NCBI RefSeq assembly: GCF_003429565.1
Contig: NZ_QUAK01000083.1
Coordinates: forward strand, 1,750-65,749
From: Streptomyces triticagri
Lineage (GTDB): Bacteria; Actinomycetota; Actinomycetes; Streptomycetales; Streptomycetaceae
Direction of reading: 5' to 3'
Length of the DNA stretch: 64,000 bases
In this document: piece after piece, positions 1,439 through 59,154 of the stretch
Numbering within the stretch: the stretch's first letter is position 1
How the letters are laid out: every line of letters starts with the position of its first letter
Translations under genes and position numbers: made by a program
Notes under the pieces: model-generated
Databases searched by the model: none
What the model saw: only the letters and a program-made list of their open reading frames with translations
Told to the model about the DNA's origin: nothing

Positions 1439-3910
1439 TCAGCTCGTCGTGAAGGTGAAGTCGTCCAGTTCGAACAGGGCGTCGGAGCCTTCGCCCTTGA
1501 AGACCAGGAAGAGGTCGGTGCTGTCCGCCGATCCCGCTTCCAGGGCGGTGCTCACATCGGTGTACGTCTCCCAGCCGCCGGTCGGTTCGACGTCGACGGA
1601 GCCGAGCAGGGTGCCGTCCACGGCGCCCTCGCGGACCTCGATGGTGCCGCCGGGGCCGTCGGAGGCGACGCGTGCGGCGAGCTCGGTGACATTGTCGAGG
1701 ACATACGGCTTGAAGGAGATCCAGTCGCCGTCGTTGATCTCCCCGACGACCTTCCCGCCGTGCGCCGACTCGCGGTTGGTGGTCTCGACGCCCTCGGAGT
1801 CGTCGTAGAACTCGCCCTGCCGGTGCTTGGGCTGGGTGACGCTCTGGTCGTGGGTGGTCAGCGGCGGCTGGCCGTTCGCGCCCTCGTCGGTGTACTCGGC
1901 GTCGAAGACTCCGAAGATGTTGGCGTTCGGGTCGTGCTCGCCGTCCTCGGAGGTCTGCAGGGTGCCCTCGCAGCCGTTGGCCGAGGTGACCGGGTGGCCG
2001 TGGCTGTCGTGGCCGAGGATGTGGGTGACGGTGACCTTGCTGCAGTCGATCTCGGTGTCCTCGGCGTCGGTGACCGTCACCTTGAACGGCACCTTGTCAC
2101 CGAAGGTGAACAGCTGGCCGTCCTTGGGGAGTTCGAGCTTCACCTCGGGTGCGGTGTTGCCCACGGTGATGTGCGCGGAGGCGGATCCGGTGCGCCCGGT
2201 GGTGTCCTCGACGGTGACCGTCGCGGCGTAGGTGCCGTTCTCCTCGAAGGTGTGCGTCGGGTTCTGCTCCTCGGAGGTCGCTCCGTCGCCGAAGTCCCAG
2301 CTGTACGTCAGCTCGTCGCCGTCGGCGTCGCTGGCCTCGGAGGTGAACTTGACCTCGAGCGGTGCCTGTCCGCTGGTGACGTCCGCCTTGGCCTCGGCGA
2401 CCGGCGAGTTGCCCTCGGTGGCGTTCTCGATGCGATAGAGCGCGGAGTTCTCGTCACCGTTGAAGTAGCCGGTGCCGTAGTCGAGGACGTAGAGCGCGCC
2501 GTCCGGCCCGAACTGCATGTCCATCACCTGGGTGCCGGTCCAGGGGAAGTCGTTGATGGACTGCACCGTGCCGTCGCCGGCGCCGTCGTGTTCGATGCGC
2601 TTGATCCACTGGCGGCCGAACTCTCCGGCGAAGAAGTTCCCGTCGAACTCCTCGGGGAACTTGACCTGCGAGTCGAGGTCGGCGTCGTAGTGGTAGACGG
2701 GGCCGGCCATCGGGGACTCGGAGCCGTTGCCGAACTCGGGGACGGAGTCGCCGTCGTAGGGGATCCAGGCCTCCTGGGCGGGCGGCAGATCGGTCAGGCC
2801 GGTGTTGTGCCGCGAGGTGTTCTTCGGGGCGGCGCAGTCGAACTTCTCGCCCGAGGTGCCGGTGGCGAAGTCGTAGTCGTTGTAGGCGTCGTTCTTGCCC
2901 GTGCAGTACGGCCAGCCGAAGTTCCCCGCCTCGGTCACCCGGGCGAACTCGACCTGACCGGCCGGTCCGCGCTCCGGGTCGGCCGCGCCCGCGTCGGGCC
3001 CGTAGTCACCGACGTAGACGACGCCGGTGGGCTTGTCGACGCTGATCCGGAAGGGGTTGCGGAAGCCCATCGCGTAGATCTCGGGGCGGGTCTTCTCGGT
3101 GCCCTCCTCGAAGAGGTTGCCCTCGGGGACCGTGTACGAGCCGTCGTCGGCGACCTTGATGCGCAGGACCTTGCCGCGCAGGTCGTTGCTGTTGCCGGCG
3201 CTGCGCCGGGCGTCGAAGGCCGGGTTGCGGTCCTCGCGCTCGTCGATCGGCGTGAAGCCGTCGGAGGCGAAGGGGTTGGAGTCGTCGCCGGTCGATAGGT
3301 AGAGGTTGCCGTCCGCGTCGAAGTCGATGTCGCCGCCGACGTGGCAGCAGGTCCCGCGGTTCGCGGGTACGTCGAGGACCTTCTTCTCACTGTCCTTGTC
3401 GAGGGTGCCGTCCTCGTTCAGGACGAAGCGGGAGAGGCGGTTGACGCCGTCGAAGGGTTCGAAGTCGGCCGCGGTGCCGTTCTCGGGGGCGTCGCCCGCA
3501 GGGGTGTCCAGGGGCGGCGCGTAGTACAGGTAGATCGCGCGGTTCTCCTCGAACTGCGGGTCCACGCCGACGCCTTGGAGGCCCTCCTCGTCGTGCGAGT
3601 ACACGTCGAGGGTGCCGGCCAGGGTGGTGGTGCCGCCGGTGTCGGTGAGCCGCAGGGCGCCGTCGCGCGAGGTGTGGAGGACCTGGCCGTCGGGGAGCAG
3701 TGCCATGGTCATGGGCTCGCCCATCTCCTCCTCGCCCTTGGCGAGGGTGACCTGCTGGAAGTCCTCAGCGGCCGGTGCCGCGGCCGGACGTCCGGCGTCC
3801 GGGTCGGCGGCGCCCGCGGTGGGGGCGGAGAGGGTGAGCGAGGTGCCGGCGAGCAGCGCTCCGGTGAGGAGCGCCAGTGGTTTGCGGAGTCTGGGCCGTT
3901 TGCTGTGCAC
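1439..3910 (-). CDS. Secreted PQQ-type (glucose/sorbosone) sugar dehydrogenase with PKD and C-terminal carbohydrate-binding-like domain
   Basis: 823 residues with a Sec signal peptide ending about residue 34 (TAGA-AD). Residues about 50-500 form a soluble glucose/sorbosone-dehydrogenase-type beta-propeller: LQGVGVDPQF, GTCCHVGGDIDFDADGNLYL, DLRGKVLRI, YAMGFRNPFRIS and FGPDGALYVLDYG are family signatures. A PKD domain follows at about 503-583 (YSWDFGDG), then a linker, and about 690-823 resembles a CBM6-like sandwich (DGDWISFKPY, ending in FELDDFTF). It sits directly upstream of the ThuA/DUF1080 gene. Inference: it oxidises a sugar outside the cell, and the downstream lipoprotein then processes the keto product. 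A candidate ROK-family operator lies at 4101-4123, about 190 bp upstream of the start codon. Confidence 0.85.
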   Translation of the reverse strand: MHSKRPRLRKPLALLTGALLAGTSLTLSAPTAGAADPDAGRPAAAPAAEDFQQVTLAKGEEEMGEPMTMALLPDGQVLHTSRDGALRLTDTGGTTTLAGTLDVYSHDEEGLQGVGVDPQFEENRAIYLYYAPPLDTPAGDAPENGTAADFEPFDGVNRLSRFVLNEDGTLDKDSEKKVLDVPANRGTCCHVGGDIDFDADGNLYLSTGDDSNPFASDGFTPIDEREDRNPAFDARRSAGNSNDLRGKVLRIKVADDGSYTVPEGNLFEEGTEKTRPEIYAMGFRNPFRISVDKPTGVVYVGDYGPDAGAADPERGPAGQVEFARVTEAGNFGWPYCTGKNDAYNDYDFATGTSGEKFDCAAPKNTSRHNTGLTDLPPAQEAWIPYDGDSVPEFGNGSESPMAGPVYHYDADLDSQVKFPEEFDGNFFAGEFGRQWIKRIEHDGAGDGTVQSINDFPWTGTQVMDMQFGPDGALYVLDYGTGYFNGDENSALYRIENATEGNSPVAEAKADVTSGQAPLEVKFTSEASDADGDELTYSWDFGDGATSEEQNPTHTFEENGTYAATVTVEDTTGRTGSASAHITVGNTAPEVKLELPKDGQLFTFGDKVPFKVTVTDAEDTEIDCSKVTVTHILGHDSHGHPVTSANGCEGTLQTSEDGEHDPNANIFGVFDAEYTDEGANGQPPLTTHDQSVTQPKHRQGEFYDDSEGVETTNRESAHGGKVVGEINDGDWISFKPYVLDNVTELAARVASDGPGGTIEVREGAVDGTLLGSVDVEPTGGWETYTDVSTALEAGSADSTDLFLVFKGEGSDALFELDDFTFTTS

Positions 3911-41377: not shown

Positions 41378-41402
41378 AGCGTATGTGACCTGACCTGGTC
41401 AG
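41378..41402 (-). promoter_or_regulatory. Histidine kinase promoter with dyad
   Basis: A -10-like TACGCT (41383-41378, minus strand) stands 6 bp before the kinase ATG. A 13-bp perfect dyad CTGACCTGGTCAG lies at 41390-41402, immediately beside the shared response-regulator element at 41406. Confidence 0.4.
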
Positions 41403-41405
41403 CGG

Positions 41406-41475
41406 GGTGGAGCGGGCTACACCATCGGTCGACGGGTCTGTGCCCTGCCGGGGGCCGGTGCTCGTCGCTCAGGAT
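41406..41475 (+). promoter_or_regulatory. Promoter with shared upstream element, small membrane protein
   Basis: The dyad-like GGTGGAGCGGGCTACACC (41406-41423), GACGGGTCTGTGCCCT (41431-41446) and a CAGGAT -10-like hexamer at 41470, 64 bp from the start of the dyad. It is the partner of 35928-35996. The site lies 35 bp from the divergent kinase start, so it could also govern the kinase/regulator genes. Confidence 0.6.
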
Positions 41476-41535
41476 GGAGACATCAGGACGCGCCGCGTCG
41501 GCCGCGCGTCGCCGCTCACCTCACGGGAGTTCGCC

Positions 41536-41709
41536 ATGAAGGCCCTGCTCTGGTTCGTGCTCGTCTGCTCGCTGCTCTTCAACGTGTTCACGAGCATCCT
41601 GTTCTCCGGGGCGACCCAGGTGGCGCTCAGCGTGGTGTCCGGAGTCATCGTCCTCGGCTCGGGGTTCGCGCTGTGGATGCTGCGTGACCGGGACCCGCAG
41701 CACACCTGA
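41536..41709 (+). CDS. Small single/double-pass membrane protein
   Basis: 57 residues from the ATG at 41536 with GGGAG 7 bp upstream; an in-frame GTG at 41407 lies inside the promoter element and is unlikely. It has two hydrophobic stretches (ALLWFVLVCSLLFNVFTSILF and VALSVVSGVIVLGSGFALWML) and a charged end (RDRDPQHT). No family recognised. It shares its promoter element with the ABC exporter and is divergent from the kinase, so it may be an accessory of the same envelope-response system. Confidence 0.7.
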   Translation: MKALLWFVLVCSLLFNVFTSILFSGATQVALSVVSGVIVLGSGFALWMLRDRDPQHT

Positions 41710-41805
41710 GCCGTACACCCCTCCCCCCGCACCGGCGCCGCGCGCAACCCGTACGGCCCCCACGGAGAGGTGGCTCCCCCGTCGCGCGCCTAACTTCGGG
41801 TCTTA

Positions 41806-41968
41806 GGTCGTATCCGGGAAGTCCTGCACGGCGCACACGGCGCCCGGCACGCACTCTCGCCGCACCGGCCGAAAGCCCAAGTACATCCAGTACGAGGACT
41901 TCCGGCCGGCACGCCGAGAGCACGCACCGGACACCGCGAGCACCGCACAGGACTTCCCGGATACGACC
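41806..41968 (-). ncRNA. 163-bp imperfect palindrome; candidate structured RNA upstream of narG
   Basis: Position p pairs with 83774-p over 79 positions, with a 5-base loop (41885-41889) centred at 41887. The outer 21 pairs are perfect (41806-41826 with 41948-41968). In all, 61 pairs are Watson-Crick. Of the 18 others, 14 are A-C oppositions on the plus strand, which become G-U pairs if the minus strand is transcribed, and none are G-T. Minus-strand RNA would therefore pair 75 of 79 positions. It lies 36 bp before the narG start. A minus-strand promoter was not identified; the RNA assignment is inference. Confidence 0.5.
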
Positions 41969-42003
41969 AACGTGCCCACGCGCAGACCCGAGGGAGCCGT
42001 CCG

Positions 42004-45000
42004 GTGACCGACCACTCGACCGACCCCGTCACCGAACCCGGCGCGGCGCTGCTGCGCGCCGGCAGGTTCTTCCGCCGGGGCACCGCCGCACCGGACATGC
42101 ACAGTGTGCAGATCGAGGGCGGCCGGGCGGCGGACGCCTTCTACCGCGACCGGTGGAGCCACGACAAGGTCGTCAACTCCACGCACGGGGTGAACTGCAC
42201 GGGCTCCTGCCGCTGGAAGGTGTACGTCAAGGACGGCATCATCACCTGGGAGACCCAGCAGACGGACTATCCCTCGGTGGGCCCGGACCGCCCCGAGTAC
42301 GAGCCGCGCGGCTGCCCGCGCGGCGCCGCCTTCTCCTGGTACACCTACTCGCCGACCCGGGTGCGCTACCCGTACATCAGGGGCGTGCTGCTCGACATGT
42401 ACCGGGAGGCGAAGCGGCGGCTCGGTGATCCGGTGCTCGCCTGGGCGGACATCCAGGACGACCCGGAGCGCCGGCGCCGCTATCAGCAGGCCCGCGGCAA
42501 GGGCGGTCTGGTGCGCGCGACCTGGGACGAGGCGCAGGAGATCGTCGCCGCGGCGCATGTGCACACCATCAAGAAGTACGGCCCGGACCGGGTCGCCGGC
42601 TTCTCCCCGATCCCCGCGATGTCGATGGTGTCGCATGCGGCGGGCGCGCGGTTCATGAGTCTGATCGGCGCCCCGATGCTGTCGTTCTACGACTGGTACG
42701 CGGATCTGCCGGTCGCCTCTCCGCAGGTGTTCGGCGACCAGACCGATGTGCCGGAGTCCGGTGACTGGTGGGACGCGGCGTATCTGATGATGTGGGGCTC
42801 CAATGTGCCGGTGACCCGGACCCCGGACGCGCACTGGATGGCGGAGGCCCGCTACCGCGGCCAGAAGGTCGTGGTGGTGGCCCCGGACTATGCCGACAAC
42901 GCGAAGTTCGCGGACGAGTGGCTGCATCCGCACCCCGGCACGGACGGCGCCCTTGCCATCGCGATGGGGCATGTGATCCTGCGCGAGTTCTTCGTGGAGA
43001 AACAGTCCGCGTTCTTCTCGGACTACGTACGGAAGTTCACCGACCTGCCGTTCCTGGTGACCCTCACCCGCCGTGACGGTGCCTGGGTGCCGCACAAGTT
43101 CCTGCGGGCGAGCGATGTCGGGGACACCTCCGAGGGCGCCGAGTGGAAGACCGTGGTGCTCGACGACGTGACGGGCGAGCCGGTGGTGCCGGGCGGCTCC
43201 CTCGGCTTCCGCTGGACCGAGTCGGGCAAGGGCAAGTGGAATCTGGACCTGGGTGAGATCGAGCCGCGCCTTTCGCTGCAGGGCAGCGACGTGGCCGCCG
43301 GGGTGGAGGTGCTGCTTCCGCGGTTCGACACCGAGGGAGGTGAGCACGGGCAGGGACGTGGCGAGGTGCTGCGCCGCGGGGTGCCGGCCACCCGGCTCGG
43401 CGGCCAGGACGGGCCGCTTGTGACCACGGTCTTCGACCTGCTGCTCGCCCAGTACGGGGTGGGCCGCGACGGTCTGCCGGGTGACTGGCCGTCGTCGTAC
43501 GAGGATGTCGACGCGCCGGGGACGCCGGGCTGGCAGGAGGCGCTGACCTCGGTGCCGGCCGCGGCGGCGGTCCGTATCGCCCGGGAGTTCGCGGACACCG
43601 CGGAGCGGTCCGAGGGCCGCTGCATGATCCTGATGGGCGCGGGCACCAACCACTGGTTCCACTCCGAGACCATCTACCGTGCCTTCCTCGCGCTGCTGCA
43701 GCTGACCGGCTGCCAGGGGCGCAACGGCGGCGGCTGGGCGCACTACGTCGGCCAGGAGAAGTGCCGCCCCTCGACCGGCTGGGCCACCCTCGCCGGTGCG
43801 GGCGACTGGAGCCGGCCGCCGCGGCAGATGATCGGCGCCGCGTACTGGTTCCTCAACACCGACCAGTGGCGCTACGACCGGTTCGGCGCCGATGTGCTCG
43901 CCTCGCCGCTCGGTGAGGGCCGCTTCGACGGGATGACGGGGGCCGACTGCCTCGCCCAGTCGGCGCGCGCGGGCTGGATGCCCTCGTATCCGACCTTCGA
44001 CCGCAATCCGCTCGATCTCGCCGACAGTGCGGACCCGGTCGCGGACGCGGTGGCCGGGCTCAAGGCGGGCAGCCTGAAGTTCGCCTGCGAGGACCCGGAC
44101 GCGCCGGAGAACTGGCCGCGGGTGCTGACCCTGTGGCGGGCCAATCTGCTCGGTTCGTCGGCGAAGGGCGCCGAGTACTTCACCCGCCATCTCCTCGGCA
44201 CCCACTCGTCGTTGAACGCGACGGAGGCGTCCGAGGACGAACGGCCGCGGGATGTGACGTGGCACGAGGAGGCACCGGAGGGAAAGCTCGATCTGCTGCT
44301 TTCGCTCGACTTCCGGCAGACCTCCTCCACTCTGCTCTCGGACGTGGTGCTGCCCGCGGCGACCTGGTACGAGAAGCACGACCTGTCGTCGACCGACATG
44401 CACCCGTACGTCCACTCGTTCACCCCTGCCGTGGACCCGCCCTGGCAGGCGCGCACCGACTTCGACACCTTCCACGGGCTTGCGCAGCGGCTCAGTGAAC
44501 TCGCCGCAGGCCACTTGGACGTACGCAAGGACCTGGTGGCCACCGCCCTGCAGCACGACACCCCGGGCGAGACGGCGCAGCCCGGCGGGGTGTGCCTGGA
44601 CTGGCGGCGCGGGGACTGCGAGCCGGTGCCGGGCCGGACGATGCCCCAACTGACCGTGGTGGAGCGGGACTACACGGCGATCGGTGCGAAGTTCGCCTCG
44701 CTCGGTCCGCTCGCCGACAAGCTGGGTCTGCCGGTGAAGGGCATCGCCTTCCGGCCCGACGAGGAGATCGCGGACCTGGCCAGGCGCAACGGCACGGCGC
44801 ACGGTGGTCCGGCCGACGGGCGCCCGCTCCTGGACACGGCGGTGAAGGCCGCGAACACCATCCTGGCGCTGTCCGGCACCACCAACGGGCGGCTCGCCAC
44901 CCAGGGCTTCCACACTCTGGAGGAGCGCACCGGCCAGGAGATGGCGCATCTGGCCGCGGAGGCCGAGGGCAAGCGCATCACGTATGCGGACACGCAGGCC

Positions 45001-45699
45001 GCGCCGGTCCCGGTGATCACCTCGCCGGAGTGGTCGGGCAGCGAGTCGGGCGGGCGCCGCTACACGGCGTTCACCCTCAACACCGAGCATCTCAAGCCCT
45101 GGCACACCCTCACCGGACGCCAGCACTTCTTCCTCGACCACGACTGGATCCACGAGCTGGGCGAAGCACTGCCGGTGTACCGGCCGCCGCTCGACATGCA
45201 CCGCCTCTTCAACGAACCGGTCCTCGGGCCTGACGGCGAGAAGGAGGTGACGGTCCGTTACCTCACCCCGCACAACAAGTGGTCGATCCACTCGGAGTAC
45301 CAGGACAACCTCTTCATGCTGTCCCTGTCCCGCGGCGGCCAGTGCATCTGGATGTCCCCGCAGGACGCCGAGTCCATCGGGGTGAAGGACAACGACTGGA
45401 TCGAGGCGGTCAACCGCAACGGTGTGGTGGTGGCCCGCGCCATCGTCTCGCACCGCATGCCGGCCGGCACGGTCTATATGCACCACGCACAGGAACGCAC
45501 GGTCAATGTGCCGAAGGCCGAGACCACCGGCCGCCGCGGCGGCATCCACAACTCCCTCACCCGGGTCCTGATGAAGCCCAGCCATCTCATCGGCGGCTAC
45601 GCCCAACTCTCCTGGGCCTTCAACTACTTGGGCCCGACCGGCAATCAGCGCGACGAGGTGACGGTCATCCGCAGACGTTCCCAGACAGTGTCCTACTAG
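42004..45699 (+). CDS. narG: Respiratory nitrate reductase alpha subunit (NarG)
   Basis: 1231 residues from a GTG with GAGGGAG upstream. N-terminal Fe4S4 (FS0) ligands His61, Cys65 and Cys69 (STHGVNCTGSCRWKV), the molybdenum-ligand Asp at about residue 230 (LSFYDWYADLPVASPQVFGDQTD region), ARFMSLIGAPM and NGGGWAHYVGQEK. The C-terminal molybdopterin domain ends with HAQERTVNVPK, KPSHLIGGYAQLSWAFNYLGPTGNQRDE. Full length for the family. First gene of narGHJI. It reduces nitrate to nitrite at the inner face of the membrane, using quinol electrons passed by NarI and NarH. Confidence 0.97.
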   Translation: MTDHSTDPVTEPGAALLRAGRFFRRGTAAPDMHSVQIEGGRAADAFYRDRWSHDKVVNSTHGVNCTGSCRWKVYVKDGIITWETQQTDYPSVGPDRPEYEPRGCPRGAAFSWYTYSPTRVRYPYIRGVLLDMYREAKRRLGDPVLAWADIQDDPERRRRYQQARGKGGLVRATWDEAQEIVAAAHVHTIKKYGPDRVAGFSPIPAMSMVSHAAGARFMSLIGAPMLSFYDWYADLPVASPQVFGDQTDVPESGDWWDAAYLMMWGSNVPVTRTPDAHWMAEARYRGQKVVVVAPDYADNAKFADEWLHPHPGTDGALAIAMGHVILREFFVEKQSAFFSDYVRKFTDLPFLVTLTRRDGAWVPHKFLRASDVGDTSEGAEWKTVVLDDVTGEPVVPGGSLGFRWTESGKGKWNLDLGEIEPRLSLQGSDVAAGVEVLLPRFDTEGGEHGQGRGEVLRRGVPATRLGGQDGPLVTTVFDLLLAQYGVGRDGLPGDWPSSYEDVDAPGTPGWQEALTSVPAAAAVRIAREFADTAERSEGRCMILMGAGTNHWFHSETIYRAFLALLQLTGCQGRNGGGWAHYVGQEKCRPSTGWATLAGAGDWSRPPRQMIGAAYWFLNTDQWRYDRFGADVLASPLGEGRFDGMTGADCLAQSARAGWMPSYPTFDRNPLDLADSADPVADAVAGLKAGSLKFACEDPDAPENWPRVLTLWRANLLGSSAKGAEYFTRHLLGTHSSLNATEASEDERPRDVTWHEEAPEGKLDLLLSLDFRQTSSTLLSDVVLPAATWYEKHDLSSTDMHPYVHSFTPAVDPPWQARTDFDTFHGLAQRLSELAAGHLDVRKDLVATALQHDTPGETAQPGGVCLDWRRGDCEPVPGRTMPQLTVVERDYTAIGAKFASLGPLADKLGLPVKGIAFRPDEEIADLARRNGTAHGGPADGRPLLDTAVKAANTILALSGTTNGRLATQGFHTLEERTGQEMAHLAAEAEGKRITYADTQAAPVPVITSPEWSGSESGGRRYTAFTLNTEHLKPWHTLTGRQHFFLDHDWIHELGEALPVYRPPLDMHRLFNEPVLGPDGEKEVTVRYLTPHNKWSIHSEYQDNLFMLSLSRGGQCIWMSPQDAESIGVKDNDWIEAVNRNGVVVARAIVSHRMPAGTVYMHHAQERTVNVPKAETTGRRGGIHNSLTRVLMKPSHLIGGYAQLSWAFNYLGPTGNQRDEVTVIRRRSQTVSY

Positions 45700-58837: not shown

Positions 58838-59002
58838 CACCGATCCAGCCCGTCCGGCAGCAATTCAGCCTTTACCCGGCACCGATCCTGCCCGTCCGGC
58901 ACCACTTCAGGCTTTACCCGGCACCGATCCTGCCCGTCCGGCTCCATTTCAGCCCGTCCGGCGTTTGAGGACATCTTTCAGCCTGTCCGGCGTTTGAGGA
59001 CG
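58838..59002 (+). repeat. Tandem array of dispersed Streptomyces-type repeat, plus orientation
   Basis: Two full 42-bp units and one partial (58838-58879, 58880-58921, from 58922) begin CACCGATCC and contain GCCCGTCCGGC; they are followed by two units of TTTCAGCCYGTCCGGCGTTT-GAGGAC (58947 and 58976). Confidence 0.8.
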
Positions 59003-59070
59003 AGGCCGCCAGGCCGATGCCTGGAACGCGACCCGCCACCGGCCGGTGGGTGGTACCTCAACAGCCCCGG

Positions 59071-59154
59071 CGCTGGCGCGCCTTGTCCTCAAACGCCGGA
59101 CGGGCTGAGTTGGCGCTGGCGCGCCTTGTCCTCAGACGCCGGACGGGCTGAAGG
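59071..59154 (-). repeat. Tandem array of the same repeat, inverted
   Basis: Two direct units of about 43 bp (59071-59113 and 59114-59154) start CGCTGGCGCGCCTTGTCCTC and contain the reverse complement of the 58947 element (about 24 bp of identity). The two arrays could fold against each other. Confidence 0.8.

Follow-up and report, generated by a model that had tools for sequence, protein, structure and literature searches.

ERIC (IRU) sequences of enterobacteria are non-autonomous elements with terminal inverted repeats (TIRs) and TA termini with target duplication, they form a stem-loop RNA, and in Yersinia their orientation matters for the effect on mRNA stability, as described in PMC2229807. 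The same paper presents the Correia (NEMIS) elements of Neisseria and the RUP elements of pneumococcus as short TIR elements which also have TA termini and target duplication, and according to PMC2649163 Correia elements can bind RNase III. By these descriptions, the Streptomyces element studied here is like all three in being small, TIR-bearing and flanked by TA. Compared by description with ERIC, it lives in another host group, and its single core occurs with several classes of ends and with a wobble bias on one strand. Correia/NEMIS and RUP differ from it in that the Streptomyces element is nearly one continuous hairpin, the CTAG ends of which are often the stop codons of genes. It can also be likened to REP/REPIN, which are palindromic, extragenic and of high copy number. 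REP/REPIN elements are carried by Y1 (RAYT) enzymes, whereas the ends of the Streptomyces element match DDE insertion sequences. Hairpin MITEs are usually regarded as passive pieces of DNA whose effects on RNA are incidental. Among the open-access matches listed (subscription papers and preprints lie outside this set), no earlier description of the Streptomyces family was apparent from the title or the start of the abstract. It is by the several end classes on one core, together with the one-strand wobble bias, that the family stands out.

The palindrome upstream of narG

The window, that is the whole stretch of 64,000 nucleotides of Streptomyces triticagri DNA that was analysed, contains five pairs of inverted repeats with arms of at least 35 nt and limited spacing. 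The palindrome upstream of narG is the longest close inverted repeat by far, the arms of the other four pairs being 35-38 nt. An earlier note on this DNA had described arms that pair over 79 positions around a 5-base loop, and this geometry was confirmed, with arms at 41806-41884 and 41890-41968 and the loop ATCCA at 41885-41889. The recount of the plus strand also agreed with the note, giving 61 Watson-Crick pairs, 14 A-C, 0 G-T and 4 others. The outer 21 pairs are perfect and the first mismatch is pair 22. The chance of 1 in 16,384 for 14 out of 14 on one side is correct as a figure, but it belongs to a single locus that was chosen afterwards, so independent support has to come from other copies of the family. 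The minus strand folds with -156.8 kcal/mol (z -22.4) and the plus strand with -106.4 kcal/mol (z -13.3); for either strand 0 of 200 shuffles were as good. The parts of the element are collected in Table 1.

Table 1. Positions in the window of the element, its parts and the neighbouring narG gene
Feature	Position	Strand	Remark
narG, nitrate reductase alpha subunit	42004..45699	+	TIGR01580 (NCBIfam), 1617 bits (cut-off 1084)
Whole copy of the MITE-type element (class c0), in the orientation of its G-U strand	41806..41968	-	5' end 41968, 3' end 41806
TA beside one end, likely half of a TA target duplication	41804..41805	.	Opposite side, 41969-41970, is AA
Conserved hairpin core, covariance model R1	41836..41940	-	114.8 bits on -, 54.2 on +
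GTGCGTGC motif, 5' arm	41920..41927	-	Pairs with the 3'-arm copy as tandem U-G/G-U
GTGCGTGC motif, 3' arm	41847..41854	-	Pairs with the 5'-arm copy
Apical loop TGGAT (minus strand)	41885..41889	-	Neither G varies in the alignment of 23 sequences
Outer arm of 21 nt with perfect pairing, similar to a terminal repeat	41948..41968	-	Resembles the GGCCGTGTCCGTAAAGTC ends of the IS5-type element of G003
Second outer arm, 21 nt, inverted copy of 41948..41968	41806..41826	-	

narG is the downstream neighbour of the element and lies outside the element itself. No match to the element reached the Rfam gathering score when 41400-42300 of the window was searched with covariance models, and the sub-threshold match in that interval, mir-2071 at 42028-42102, lies outside the element. 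A simple scan of 41600-42100 found neither a sigma-70-type promoter nor an intrinsic terminator. Upstream of the element there is an ORF for a hydrophobic protein of 57 aa (41536-41709) with no NCBIfam match; its DNA is conserved, at 79% in genome G020 and 77% in G246. Elsewhere in the window, at 58938-59119, 36-nt inverted arms that are 89% complementary stand 110 nt apart, and this stretch contains CCGTCCGGCGTTTGAGGAC.

A dispersed family with empty sites

Rather than being a feature of the narG leader, the palindrome is a single copy of a MITE-type element that is dispersed and non-autonomous. A mobile inverted-repeat element had been the fallback reading of the earlier note, which also proposed a search for unlinked copies, and that search found many, both in the same genome and in other Streptomyces genomes. 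In the genome of the window 16 match rows fall at 13 places; one of these is the window copy, and the 12 others are full or partial copies. By BLAST, a match to the 105-nt core was found in 20 of 41 genomes, the window's own among them. With a covariance model (E <=1e-8) the family was found in 103 of the 150 Streptomyces genomes sampled, and in a class-wide sample it occurred in 8 of 148 genomes, namely 7 of Streptomyces (own genome included) and 1 other. A pattern scan of named genomes gave at least 117 stretches. Among the matches listed, 81 elements were read in 80 loci, 79 of them in Streptomyces and 1 in Kitasatospora. Fifteen plasmid records match (13 Streptomyces, 2 Embleya); in 14 of them no feature is listed beneath the match in what is an incomplete gene table, and one record is unannotated. 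No match to the element was found in phages.

The element is short, is present in multiple copies and carries no transposase gene. G020, the genome of a relative, has the same small ORF and the same narG start without the element and thus presents an empty orthologous site. The junction in the window reads CTTCGGGTCTTA-element-AACGTGCCC and the empty site of G020 reads CTTCGGGACATAGTGCCC. Two further copies of the window's genome are missing at their places in G020 (at one of them, L010, the alignment is ragged). Target duplications were found along with the empty sites, the window copy having one TA as AA and other copies having altered ends too. Of the two further copies missing from G020, the one at locus L016 (about 2961-3130) seems to split an ORF which is continuous in G020.

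CTAG stands on both sides of 95 of 141 elements and on a single side of 25, which makes 120 with at least one; the remaining 21 have none. Nine end classes were aligned on the shared hairpin core, the cores of classes c11 and c12 having diverged; these class alignments omit 43 of 148 copies, being 41 grouped as 'other' and the two-copy class c13. The 3' side has a fixed length in 54 of 81 elements, in which GTGCC of the core and the terminal CTAG are exactly 37 nt apart although the end sequences differ. One element (L300) has two different end types, and in another (L279) the arms are mixed from two classes. Such unlike ends suggest recombination between elements, and the two could be intermediates of end exchange.

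The ends also point to candidate helper transposons. In genome G011 the class whose ends read CTAGTGCTGTG... agrees at either end with a longer element, L382, of about 1.5 kb. This longer element encodes a protein of 373 aa with HTH_29, HTH_32 and DDE_3 domains, from which we take it to be of the IS630 type, as these are the domains expected of IS630 transposases. Both of its ends match the c11 repeats, and thus for c11 the terminal repeats are shared with an autonomous element of the same genome. An element of about 0.9 kb in G003 (L234), with GGCCGTGTCCGTAAAGTC ends, encodes DUF4096 and DDE_Tnp_1 and is of the IS5 type. For c0, the class of the window copy, only this similar IS5-type end was found, in another genome and not in its own. 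Both larger elements resemble the family in having terminal repeats and CTAG ends, but they differ from it in that the hairpin-core model has no match within either of these parent candidates. Since the ends match IS630-type and IS5-type elements, the element is probably mobilised in trans by their DDE transposases.

The position of copies relative to genes was counted on calls from a home-made GC-position caller. By these calls the terminal TAG of CTAG-ended elements is the stop codon of a gene in 48 of 120 cases, against 26 of 134 control CTAG sites within the 876 kb surveyed (p 0.0005), or 26 of 112 (p 0.007) when control sites inside genes are left aside. The neighbouring genes of 141 elements are convergent in 35 cases, divergent in 11 and in tandem in 39, and 56 elements are without a called gene on at least one side. 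Relative to the gene that ends at the element, the strand with G-U pairs is sense in 21, antisense in 25 and both in 2. Elements thus favour gene ends without an orientation bias, perhaps since CTAG is rare elsewhere.

The fold is kept on one strand

As checks the earlier note had proposed covariation and the strand bias of the mismatches. In the 23-sequence alignment of the core both partners have changed in 20 of 35 pairs and 96.4% of cells are paired, values that 0 of 500 shuffles reach. In this alignment pairing is 96.5% on the G-U strand and 75.6% on the opposite strand. In the consensus arms of the nine classes there are 104 G-U against 5 A-C, with 40 other mismatches, and G-U exceeds A-C in each class, the weakest being c12 with 6 to 3. 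The core is common to the classes, and many of the core wobbles in these counts are hence not independent between classes; the outer arms alone have 19 G-U, 1 A-C and 5 other. When majority pair states of the nine classes are taken, the numbers are 576 Watson-Crick, 104 G-U, 1 A-C and 15 other. Counted over 148 copies there are 1830 G-U and 222 A-C, but these include flanking bases and the class-level counts were used instead. The claim of a fold on one strand thus holds across the family, in which wobbles are mostly G-U on the strand corresponding to the window's minus strand; the antisense role at narG that had been attached to it is not supported.

For comparison, a set of 190 other imperfect hairpins was taken from the window and 140 loci; their plus strands show 328 G-T against 269 A-C. 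In the 66 of them with at least 4 such mismatches the one-sidedness is 0.689, against 0.675 expected (range 0.643-0.711). Control hairpins are no more one-sided than chance.

Changes that arise from Watson-Crick pairs were divided into shared variants, present in at least 2 copies of a class, and singletons. The uncompensated shared variants are 37 G-U to 2 A-C, as compared to 39 to 32 for singletons (Fisher p 8e-6). With compensated variants included, the numbers are 39 to 6 and 49 to 46 (p 6e-5), and when pairs are defined by the fold of the opposite strand they are 37 to 2 and 39 to 33. The ratio of shared variants to singletons is 0.95 for changes from Watson-Crick to G-U and 0.77 (27/35) at unpaired sites, and it falls to 0.06 for changes from Watson-Crick to A-C. 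New changes are about even and the old ones appear to have been filtered for pairing, which argues for selection on the fold of one strand and not for an asymmetry of mutation. G-U variants are retained to much the same degree as changes at unpaired sites, and RNA is for this reason preferred over single-stranded DNA.

Within four single genomes (G188, G053, G143 and G140) the contrast between shared variants and singletons is absent, with 5 to 6 shared and 8 to 6 singletons; at the level of pairs it is 13 to 6 shared and 20 to 6 singletons. This set was chosen as 80 copies among the matches listed, of which 10 that fall in clusters of fewer than 5 (five of G118, three of G143 and two of G188) were omitted, and G140 is probably also in the first copy set. 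The copies within a genome may not be old enough for such filtering to have taken place.

What the fold could mean for the element

The data suggest that a folded single strand, probably RNA, matters to the element itself rather than to a nearby gene. The explanation that we favour, and hold to be somewhat probable, is a family of Streptomyces MITEs whose long-lived lineages keep an RNA-like fold on one strand and whose copies are moved in trans by DDE transposases. A non-autonomous element of about 160-180 bp would be carried by IS5-type or IS630-type transposases into CTAG/TA sites, and in the long term only those lineages in which the strand corresponding to the window's minus strand still folds would go on propagating. 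The foldable strand would be copied into RNA, and the hairpin of this RNA would benefit the element. It might end or shield a read-through transcript, and insertion near the end of a gene would thus be cheap for the host. The missing contrast within the four single genomes, the weak bias of class c12, the dependence of core wobbles between classes, the presence of the matching insertion sequence for c0 in another genome and not in its own, and the empty promoter scan around the window copy count against this explanation. In addition, with an unbiased orientation to genes there is no reason for read-through RNA to favour one strand. A bolder extension, which we regard as possible though tentative, is that a single hairpin core has acquired new ends from unrelated transposons of the IS5 and IS630 types and become a parasite of several transposase families at once, the long-term spread of these transposon derivatives depending on one strand folding as RNA.

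The selected molecule could also be a single-stranded DNA hairpin that acts in transfer or transposition, in the manner of attC sites or of the REP elements of Y1 transposases. A DNA role of this kind predicts what is seen, a strand-specific fold with an unbiased orientation to genes, and the 15 plasmid records are in keeping with it. However, the ends are those of DDE-type insertion sequences, and the 48 copies in G011 are divided 19 against 29 by orientation within the chromosome halves, which is no clear bias (p 0.19). A G-T mismatch in DNA is expected to be tolerated less than is seen here, where G-U changes are borne like those at unpaired sites. A DNA hairpin is on balance rather unlikely.

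It could be argued that pairing is incidental and that a directional DNA-binding protein recognises the GTGC motifs, which are nearly invariant and stand as direct repeats on both arms. Yet the bias (19 to 1) is also present in the outer arms, whose sequences vary from class to class, and elsewhere both partners of pairs change, making this quite improbable. A perfect palindrome that decays by strand-asymmetric C to T and A to G mutation, with no selection at all, would produce the A-C positions of the window copy, each of which can be reached by one transition. Such decay is at odds with the even uncompensated singletons (39 to 32, and 8 to 6 within genomes), with the 20 of 35 pairs that changed on both sides, with the near invariance of the GTGC wobbles and with the lack of bias in other hairpins; we consider it very improbable.

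A tiny protein gene was considered too, starting with GTG and running for 40 codons to the TAG of the terminal CTAG. This frame reaches the terminal TAG in 7 of the 9 class consensus sequences and is kept in 54 of 81 elements (16 are without the terminal CTAG and 11 stop elsewhere), and some classes have AAGGAG ahead of it. But in the seven in-frame classes the variants are even over codon positions (74, 72 and 75) and synonymous in 70 of 221 cases, against 69 of 225 in the next frame. In c0, the class of the window copy, the terminal TAG does not end this frame. One such peptide gave no Pfam match, and a coding function was rejected in the absence of that match and of any codon-position signal. 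The GTG frame is taken to be a by-product, because the fixed 3' arm (37 nt in 54 of 81) dictates it; that it is a gene is extremely improbable. The similar peptides that the earlier note read outward from the arms (FRPARRE and FRPVRRE, then QDFPDTT) owe their likeness to the inverted and terminal repeats. A similar ...DFPDTP can be read at the end of the IS5-type element of G003.

Regulation of narG by an antisense RNA, as the earlier note had proposed, or by a leader RNA would suit the stable minus-strand fold and the place between 41709 and 42004, but it is hardly credible, since G020 lacks the element at the same place and the element recurs at many unrelated sites. A conserved position upstream of narG orthologues was not found (one orthologous locus, that of G020). 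Regulation specific to narG was rejected on account of the empty site and the dispersed copies, and we regard the location of the element between the small ORF and narG as accidental.

In classes most of which are represented in several species, new changes are about even and the shared, older ones are nearly all wobble-safe on one strand. This contrast of new and old would make a requirement at the level of RNA or of a single strand part of a DNA transposon's life. Being widespread in bacteria of industrial importance and favouring gene ends, the family may shape many 3' ends.

Related repeats and copies at contig ends

On contigs of genome G016 such as C711, C585, C496 and C316 many copies were observed within about 150 bases of the contig ends. 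It seems that these repeats or hairpins break short-read assemblies. A second, smaller hairpin repeat of the GGGGG...CCCCC type, about 30-40 nt long, was noticed nested within the elements at L013 and L017 in the window's genome, at L029 (G021), at L133 (G008) and at L182 and L184 (G011). It often sits at a similar place of the core and looks like another mobile hairpin family. Very short versions of the element also exist which are little more than the two end repeats, as at L183 (G011:C1:2775529-2775596, about 70 bp) and L172 (G011, about 95 bp). Another facing pair of terminal repeats, only 68 bp apart, is present at G003:C2:3103316-3103383.
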